DNA of 64,000 bases from positions 124,001 to 188,000 of the forward strand of contig JAJEGH010000043.1 of NCBI GenBank assembly GCA_022819985.1, written 5' to 3'. The position numbers were made by a program, and so were the translations under genes. Positions 11,095-62,029 of this stretch are shown here, piece by piece; within the stretch, counting starts at the first letter, position 1; each line of letters begins with the position of its first letter. The notes under the pieces were generated by a model. The model was given only the letters and a program-made list of their open reading frames with translations. It ran no database searches and was not told the DNA's origin. Source of the DNA: Alphaproteobacteria bacterium (GTDB lineage: Bacteria; Pseudomonadota; Alphaproteobacteria; Bin65).

Positions 11095-11132
11095 CCGCCG
11101 GCCGGGCCGGAGCGTGCATCGGATGGAGCTAC

Positions 11133-11300
11133 GGCCCCCTCGATACGGCCCCCTCGATACGGCCCCCTCGATACGGCCCCCTCGATACGGCGCTGGCGCG
11201 CCTACTCGGGATGAGGGAGTTGGGGGGTCCGGAAGCCTGAACGCCACTCTCACCCTCACCCTGAGTAGCCCCGGCCGTCAGGCCGGGGCGTATCGAAGGG
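11133..11300. repeat. Palindromic intergenic element, copy A
   Basis: It begins with four exact 14-bp copies of GGCCCCCTCGATAC (11133-11188). Next come GGCGCTGGCGCGCC and CTACTCGGGATGAGGG, a spacer, and the inverted partner CCCTGAGTAGCC, an 8-bp hairpin (11269-11288) and GTATCGAAGGG. The layout, with two opposed arms both carrying the CTACTCGGGATGAGGG / GTATCGA boxes, is shared with the element at 61895-62029, so this is a dispersed family. It fills the gap between two convergent genes and could also act as a bidirectional terminator. Confidence 0.85.
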
Positions 11301-16821: not shown

Positions 16822-17171
16822 TTGGAATGTCATGAAATGTCAGGATTTGTCATGGCGCTCCTTTCTTCGCCCTCTCCCGGCATTCCGACCGGTCGGGATA
16901 AGGGCCGGTGGATGTGTCATGAAATGTCATGATCCGTCATGGGGCTTCGGGCTCACACTGAACGCACCGCTGTGTCGCCCCGGACCCCGATCCGGACCCC
17001 GATCCGGGGCCCGGAGTCGACCCGAACGGTCTTCGCTCGCGGCCCCTTCGACAGGCTCAGGGCAGGCTCTGGTCTCCGGGTCGTCGCTGCGCTCCGTCCG
17101 GGGTGACAGGGGGTGTTGGGTGTGTCAGGGAATGTCATGAAATGTCAGGTTCCGTCATGGCGCTTCGGGCT
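16822..17171. repeat. Three clusters of 10-bp-phased GTCA(T/G) repeats; gap without genes
   Basis: The 532-bp gap 16795-17326 holds no supportable gene. It carries three related blocks (16828-16859, 16915-16953, about 17123-17171), each containing GTCAT or GTCAG repeated every 10 bp (GTCAT-N5-GTCAT-N5-GTCAT, four units in the last block). The second and third blocks also share the following GGCGCTTCGGGCT and TGAACGCA. Between blocks two and three (about 16980-17110) lies a separate GC-rich palindromic element (see 17044-17110). Confidence 0.8.
17044..17110. repeat. GC-rich REP-like element
   Basis: This segment contains CTTCGACAGGCTCAGGGCAGG and ends in GTCGCTGCGCTCCGTCCGGGGTGACAG. The last part resembles the right arm of the hairpin at 45229-45270 (CTTCGCTCCGGCCGGGGTGACAC), suggesting both derive from one dispersed intergenic family distinct from the 11133/61895 family. 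Confidence 0.55.
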
Positions 17172-61894: not shown

Positions 61895-62029
61895 CCCTCG
61901 ATACGTCCCTCGATACGTCCCTCGATACGGCGCTGACGCGCCTACTCGGGATGAGGGTTTCTTTATTCTCCAGGGATAACAAGATACTCCCTCATCCCGA
62001 GTAGCCGCCGCAGGCGGCGTATCGAGGGG
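61895..62029. repeat. Palindromic intergenic element, copy B
   Basis: Three 12-bp copies of CCCTCGATACGT/G (61895-61930) lead into GGCGCTGACGCGCC and CTACTCGGGATGAGGG. After a spacer of about 30 bp comes the inverted arm CCCTCATCCCGAGTAGCC, a 6-bp hairpin (62004-62018) and GTATCGAGGGG. The two arms are imperfect reverse complements of about 40 bp. The element matches copy A at 11133-11300. Confidence 0.88.

Follow-up and report, generated by a model that had tools for sequence, protein, structure and literature searches.

Convergent REP-like doublets with a covarying hairpin frame and outward tandem growth in an alphaproteobacterial genome

The window analysed here, a 64,000-nucleotide stretch of an alphaproteobacterial genome, contains two intergenic elements whose family numbers at least 86 copies in that genome. 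The elements are of a known kind, the REP doublet or BIME. New in them are a two-sided covarying frame, a replaceable inner hairpin, outward tandem growth of the ends and the finding of no linked RAYT. With moderate confidence, they are regarded as non-autonomous REP doublets (BIME/REPIN-like) which would have spread in single-stranded form by an enzyme not detected as Y1/RAYT, their ends then growing by slippage at the hairpin base. We infer, rather than observe, the mobiliser and the function of the doublets.

Copy 1 starts with a tandem array at 11130..11191 (TRF: period 14, 4.4 units of consensus TACGGCCCCCTCGA, 100% matches), within which CCCTCGATAC begins at 11137, 11151, 11165 and 11179. 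The left, A-type arm consists of the inner hairpin GGCGCTGGCGCGC(C) at 11189..11201 and the core CTACTCGGGATGAGGG at 11202..11217 on the plus strand. After a central spacer (11218..11252), the right, B-type arm shows the core CTACTCAGGGTGAGGG on the minus strand (11253..11268, 2 mismatches to CTACTCGGGATGAGGG), the inner hairpin CCCCGGCCGTCAGGCCGGGG with the C preceding GTATCGA (11269..11289) and the outer box GTATCGAAGGG (11290..11300). Copy 2 has the same layout, with a 5' array of CCCTCGATACGT at 61895..61929 (TRF: period 12, 2.9 units, 100% matches), a left arm made of the inner hairpin GGCGCTGACGCGC(C) at 61929..61941 and the core CTACTCGGGATGAGGG at 61942..61957 (plus strand), a spacer at 61958..61988, and a right arm with the core CTACTCGGGATGAGGG on the minus strand (61989..62004), the inner hairpin CCGCCGCAGGCGG plus C (62005..62018) and the outer box GTATCGAGGGG (62019..62029). 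It is thus an A/A pair, a composition found in just 2 of the 86 elements of the genome. The first-pass annotation had described two opposed arms, a spacer and tandem outer ends of four 14-bp units in copy 1 and three 12-bp units in copy 2, and all of this was borne out by TRF and by core matches above those of shuffled sequence. At ≤3 mismatches CTACTCGGGATGAGGG gave 4 matches in the window against a shuffle mean of 0.60, and 0/100 shuffles reached 4; CCCTCGATAC at ≤1 mismatch gave 16 against a mean of 3.89 and a largest value of 11. The inner hairpin sizes given there (8 bp in copy 1, 6 bp in copy 2) describe roughly the right-hand hairpins, while each element has two arm hairpins and not one, GGCGCtggcGCGCC (left arm) and CCCCGGCCgtcaGGCCGGGG (right arm) in copy 1, and GGCGCtgacGCGCC and CCGCCgcaGGCGG in copy 2. 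Copy 1 is situated between convergent genes, a FAD-binding monooxygenase-like gene (PF01494; 9775..11094, plus strand) which resembles UbiH/COQ6 hydroxylases and ends 38 bp before 11133, and a gene with a GBBH-like N-terminal domain (PF06155; 11322..12230, minus strand). The 12 best plasmid records listed for the monooxygenase-like gene come from genera of the Alphaproteobacteria, in line with the origin of the window. Copy 2 lies shortly after the stop codon of a MaoC-like / mesaconyl-CoA hydratase-like gene (PF19315, PF01575; 60823..61887, plus strand) and is followed by a succinate dehydrogenase membrane subunit gene (PF01127; 62169..62582, plus strand).

In the genome of the window (G000; 4,042,993 bases or 4.04 Mb, 51 contigs, 97.4% complete), the core CTACTCGGGATGAGGG gave 149 matches at ≤2 mismatches and the reversed pattern gave 1. 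The core matches listed merge into 84 clusters, and the fetched stretches contain at least 86 distinct elements, a lower bound with three more places (C7:43148, C11:32297 and C27:102) outside the set; the idea that only two copies might exist is therefore false. Paired arms were found in 78 of the 86 elements, as 75 A/B, 2 A/A and 1 B/B pairs, and the other 8 are single. The A/B pairs are convergent and composed of unlike arms, the A arms mostly with CTCGATAC and CGGG and the B arms mostly with TTCGATAC and CAGG. The spacer measures 16-62 bp (median 38) and falls within 25-45 bp in 75/78 pairs. CTAC/GTAG is present in 155 of 164 arm cores collected at ≤2 mismatches. At two loci, L012 (G000:C15:192564-195579) and L110 (G000:C47:52149-55311), two doublets stand back to back with a common junction, which is a duplication of the whole element. 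Half of the single copies (4/8; L021, L091, L097 and L098) sit at contig ends, where the arm is cut by another sequence. The cut is at an identical arm point, between CCTCATCC and TTTTATGAGGC, in the end of L021 (C27), in L091 1-906 (C35) and in the starts of L097 and L098 (C37, C38). In L091 the cutting sequence codes for the C-terminal portion of a transposase of the IS110/IS116 type (PF02371), and judged by its sequence it is a putative IS which targets the repeat. Other ISs that target REPs exist.

Read with GTAG at its 5' side, the arm has the form YCCY-GAGTAG-(inner hairpin)-C-GTATCGA-RGGR, an imperfect hairpin with a fixed frame. Covariation was analysed in 96 distinct G000 arms in which the frame and a stem of at least 3 bp were required, a filter which dropped 19 of 115 matches. 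The -1/+1 position is T-A in 58 arms, C-G in 37 and C-A in 1, and it is also paired in 33/34 G004 arms and 28/28 G001 arms. Because T-A and C-G exchange at this position, the difference between A and B arms is a compensated pair within the arm. Position -4/+4 is paired in 91/96 G000 arms when G-T is counted, and -5/+5 in just 12/96. The base separating the hairpin from GTATC is C in all 96 arms, while the inner hairpin itself varies in sequence and in length from 3 to 10 bp, 3 being the floor set by the filter. By hand, the frame can be paired with itself: GA stands opposite GA, followed by the pairs G-C, T-A and A-T, and two bases bulge out singly. In DNA, a Py-GA-Pu context makes tandem G.A pairs stable. 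When five typed arms were folded as DNA, the inner hairpin came out in 5/5 and an outer stem in 4/5; two arms clearly surpassed their shuffles (z -3.7, -3.0), and the remaining three had z values of -1.7, -1.6 and +0.1. As a single strand, the arm would form a hairpin with an outer stem YCCY/RGGR, then GAG..CGA, then TAG..GTAT round the freely replaceable inner hairpin.

Tandem growth of the outer end was found to be a trait of the family as a whole. Exact tandem duplications with a unit of at least 8 bp occur on the outside of 31/78 pairs and on the inside of 1/78, and in 0/154 control segments taken 400-500 bp away from the pairs. What has been duplicated, in those arrays that were read, is the segment between the flank and the hairpin base. 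Two or more outer units are present in 44/83 A arms (46 spacings of 13-14 bp, 2 of 12 bp, 16 of 39 bp and a few others) and in 14/71 B arms, where spacings are mostly 17-18 bp; these counts need the GATAC box and exclude 5/88 A arms and 5/76 B arms which have none. The 16 spacings of 39 bp contain a second repeat of CCTTCGGCTTCGCTCAGGGCAGGCT type. The arrays are consistent with end slippage, and the tandem units are most simply explained by slippage where a hairpin has stalled the replication fork. The interleaved second repeat goes beyond what simple slippage of local sequence creates. Outward arrays at the base of known hairpins would offer a natural record of replication slippage, one which can be compared among close relatives.

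Comparison with congeners showed that copy 1 is not present throughout the genus. At its orthologous site G001, G002 and G003 have no element, and G004 has one with a single unit plus a degenerate one and with different inner hairpins. Of the 19 locus pairs listed for G004 or G001, alignments were made for 11, and in 8 of these both genomes have an element at the site; L322/L009 and L324/L070 (unreadable) and L307/L074 (an empty site) were left out of the shared set. Unit number, counted by eye, differs in 6/8 shared elements. Inner hairpins differ clearly in 4/5 G004 pairs and are of one type in 3/3 G001 pairs. Genome specificity is also seen in the B hairpins of CCCCGGCC type, which make up 43/56 in G000, 7/12 in G001 and 0/14 in G004. 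Hairpins that are particular to one genome at many of its loci suggest copying, or gene conversion between elements, and replaced hairpins at shared sites could also be independent insertions at one place. Two G004 elements are absent from G000. Their joints are too diverged to define a target, no empty/filled pair in the G000/congener comparisons was clean enough to show a target or a target-site duplication, and no excision or insertion event was seen in these comparisons.

The usual explanation of REPs makes them passengers of RAYT transposases, and the first-pass annotation had likewise compared the elements to BIMEs moved by a RAYT. The BIME/REPIN-like doublet is upheld by at least 86 copies, by their pairing and by their tandem ends; the RAYT is not, as no Y1/RAYT match was found in G000. 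Neither Y1_Tnp (PF01797, E ≤ 0.001) nor REP_Tyr_transpos (NF047646, E ≤ 1) had a match in this 97.4% complete genome. The E. coli RAYT was detected as a control, so the search was able to see a RAYT, while diverged RAYTs score low (30 bits in G003) and could be missed by a profile. Of the two observations named at first pass as speaking against RAYT movement, the restriction to two copies is thus contradicted and the lack of a RAYT gene is true as far as the profiles see. A Y1 transposase within or beside the copies, by which IS200/IS605 elements are recognised, was not found. Within the genus, PF01797 is present in 2/7 genomes, G003 and G004; beyond the genus, G172 also has a RAYT. A transposase gene flanked by the same arms, which had been suggested as a check, did not emerge: an exact copy of the frame was found close to 1 of 60 Y1/RAYT loci (L348; several of the loci are one gene fetched twice), and the arms of this family are absent from the 3.2 and 1.9 kb read around the RAYTs of G003 and G004. 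These RAYTs stand between copies of another palindrome, GTAGGGGAGGGTTTnAAACCCTCCCCTAC. The RAYT genes of G003 (L045 1207-3231), G004 (L044) and G172 (L166) are all flanked by GTAGGGG-type palindromes, and with such flanks they were rejected as mobilisers of the present family. The G003 gene is closely followed by an error-prone DNA polymerase gene (NF004225), whose fragment at the end of the locus scores below the family cut-off, and in G172, of another family, the order of RAYT and polymerase is by eye seemingly the same.

On the preferred reading, an enzyme that recognises the frame, whatever the inner hairpin, would copy the doublet in its single-stranded state to new sites. Since the searches detected no Y1/RAYT gene, this enzyme may be of another kind, may have been lost, may be missed by the profiles or may act from elsewhere. 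After insertion, the hairpin would stall replication, and backward slippage of the nascent strand over the 12-18 bases that adjoin the hairpin base on its outer side (CTCGATACGGCC.. for A arms, TTCGATACGCCCC.. for B arms) would add tandem units. The strict frame, the replaceable hairpins and the lack of a detectable Y1/RAYT in 29 of 44 hosts turn this into a concrete question, the movement of REPs without a RAYT and with a defined substrate.

The same elements could be classical GTAG REPs mobilised by a RAYT which G000 has lost or which the profiles miss; this is unlikely. GTAG directly 5' of a hairpin and the dominance of inverted doublets are as in the GTAG REPs and REPINs described in PMC3733652 and PMC3116915. 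Deletion of the REP-RAYT unit is mentioned for many E. coli strains in PMC3733652, and PMC8266576 states that E. coli TnpA-REP requires GTAG and an irregular (bulged) stem, both of which the arm has. RAYTs do exist in G003, G004 and G172. When each box was allowed one mismatch, a sequence resembling the frame was found at 2/34 Y1/RAYT loci (L035/L052), which are one place near the Y1 gene of G022; this match is weak and chance-like. Against this stands the distribution of the transposase, for PF01797 is present in 15 of the 44 frame-bearing genomes and absent in 29, among them the frame-rich G363 (155 matches), G364 (136) and G216 (118). It occurs in 16/61 relatives, a set overlapping partly with the 44, so that no clear enrichment is seen. 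The single exact frame among the 60 loci and the foreign palindrome round the congeners' RAYTs also argue against a classical RAYT, as does the predominance of GGAG over GTAG in the 44 genomes (1336 of 1572 frame matches).

Slippage itself has a competitor, with the data on the tandem units fitting both. The units might be scars or staging sites of enzyme action, made by repeated strand transfer of the outer box, a proposal we consider unlikely. The confinement of exact units to the outer side of the hairpin (31/78 against 1/78) and the other repeat interleaved in the arrays at a constant 39-bp spacing in 16 cases would suit it, yet unit length and sequence track the local sequence (mostly 13-14 bp in A and 17-18 bp in B arms), as slippage predicts. 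It is quite improbable that the elements are immobile RNA-level signals, terminators or stabilisers of mRNA 3' ends, kept by selection without transposition. Their positions between convergent genes (copy 1) and just past a stop codon (copy 2) would agree with such a role, and copy 1 folds as RNA better than 200/200 shuffles (z -3.7). However, the copy 1 site is empty in 3/4 congeners compared, the genome-specific inner hairpins at many loci imply copying, and an Rfam search of the window gave no family at or above its gathering score. Very improbable is a MITE-like derivative of a DNA transposon, with terminal inverted repeats and a DDE-type transposase. The whole element is indeed an inverted repeat with CCCTCGATAC/GTATCGAGGG-like ends, some copies lie within a further inverted repeat (28/158 element flanks against 9/167 control segments, and L299 in G004), and copy 1 as DNA folds into a four-way junction (z -2.7, 3/200 shuffles equally good). 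The -1/+1 covariation, however, links the two sides of each arm and not the two ends of the element, the four-way fold puts A and B ends against each other as a C/A mismatch, the ends are uneven and lengthened by tandem units, and the comparisons showed no target-site duplication. The four-way junction was accordingly rejected as the conserved fold, the mismatches and the covariation fitting a single-arm hairpin better.

The frame of these doublets is distributed well beyond the genus. The form CTGAGTAG-N8-28-GTATCGA was found in 16/385 genomes of the class, several of which have a single chance-like match without a hairpin, and CTGAGGAG-N8-28-GTCTCGA in 58/385, many with tens of copies; for this second form the reversed controls gave 0-1. 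The GTCTCGA-form matches are often in convergent pairs among the matches listed. The 44 frame-bearing genomes were those with at least 3 matches, G373 (three matches) being left out. Their 1572 matches comprise 228 GTAG/GTATC, 1336 GGAG/GTCTC and, by subtraction, 8 mixed. G002, G003 and G004 hold both forms with 0/133 mixed, although G004 has just two GGAG matches, one of them chance-looking. The two forms fit an exchange of T-A and G-C within the stem; an identical table would also result from two families inherited separately. In a scan of named genomes, CCTGAGTAG-N-GTATCGAAGG was found, among the matches listed, in Sphingomonas, Sphingobium and Herbaspirillum, and also in MAGs labelled Defluviicoccus, Nitrospinota, Anaerolineae, Bacteroidales and Peregrinibacteria, labels which may err. 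The scan gave 106 matches in 80 of at least 119 stretches; the best stem adjoins GTAG and ends one base before GTATC in 89/106, and is at least 4 bp long in 65/106, these being counts without a random control. By arithmetic, about 39 chance matches are expected in the full 257 Gb, so some single matches are due to chance. Tentatively, there may be a REP superfamily across the class and reaching other phyla, defined by the covarying frame CCY-GAG-KAG-(any hairpin)-C-GTMT-CGA-RGG and not by a palindrome, and possibly recognised in single-stranded DNA by a non-Y1 enzyme, of which the short repeat CCTGAG-(loop)-TCGAAGG would be the frame minus its inner module.

Alphaproteobacteria have other intergenic mosaic palindromes, the RIME / RPE-type elements of rhizobia and rickettsias. 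Literature searches by arm sequence and by topic, judged by titles and the opening of abstracts, returned no description of the frame; supplementary files or figures may contain one. Like the REPINs and BIMEs of Pseudomonas and E. coli, the present elements consist of two inverted palindromic REPs with a variable spacer, reach tens to hundreds of copies, lie between genes where read and are missing from the orthologous site in some relatives. They differ from them in having no cognate RAYT that was found, long imperfect arm hairpins with a freely replaceable inner hairpin, arms that are nearly always unlike (A/B) and outer ends that grow in tandem. With the GTAG REPs of Di Nocera et al. 2013 (PMC3733652) they share GTAG beside a hairpin, tail-to-tail dimers with GTAG inside and the nesting of some REPs in other palindromes. 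Here, in contrast, GTAG lies inside a longer stem which covaries and has a fixed GTATCGA opposite, most frame copies are GGAG/GTCTC, and an association with a transposase was not seen. The two are set apart by the text description in that paper, and the frame may equal one of the 24 family consensuses in its figures. The CGTC REPs outlined in the same source are also mostly from Alphaproteobacteria and are reported there without a dedicated transposase, but their CGTC tag, their 8-9 bp stem starting with A/T pairs and their CCA tail were not seen in the arms.

Other repeats accompany the doublets. A shorter one, CCTGAG-(CTTGT, CCTGT, CGAAGC..)-CGAAGG, has 29 distinct occurrences in the stretches round the elements (31 counted minus two frame arms) and corresponds to the frame's outer half, with TAG-hairpin-GTAT missing. 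In the G004 element L299, CCTGAG-loop-CGAAGG stands at the place of the inner module of the right arm, one clear case which suggests that this repeat and the frame are one structure without and with the inner module. The window has a single repeat of this type in a strict scan, CCTGCCCTGAGCCTGTCGAAGGGGCCG at 17040-17066 on the minus strand. A looser pattern, GAG-loop-CGA with any 3-bp outer stem, gave 3 matches in the window against 2-10 in block shuffles and was set aside, the CCT..AGG form being kept. Some of the doublets, for example at L092, L107 and L109, are enclosed by a third repeat, which is inverted and larger (..AGAGCGCGTCCGTT..GGAAGCGCC..), and in L299 the doublet is positioned at its centre.
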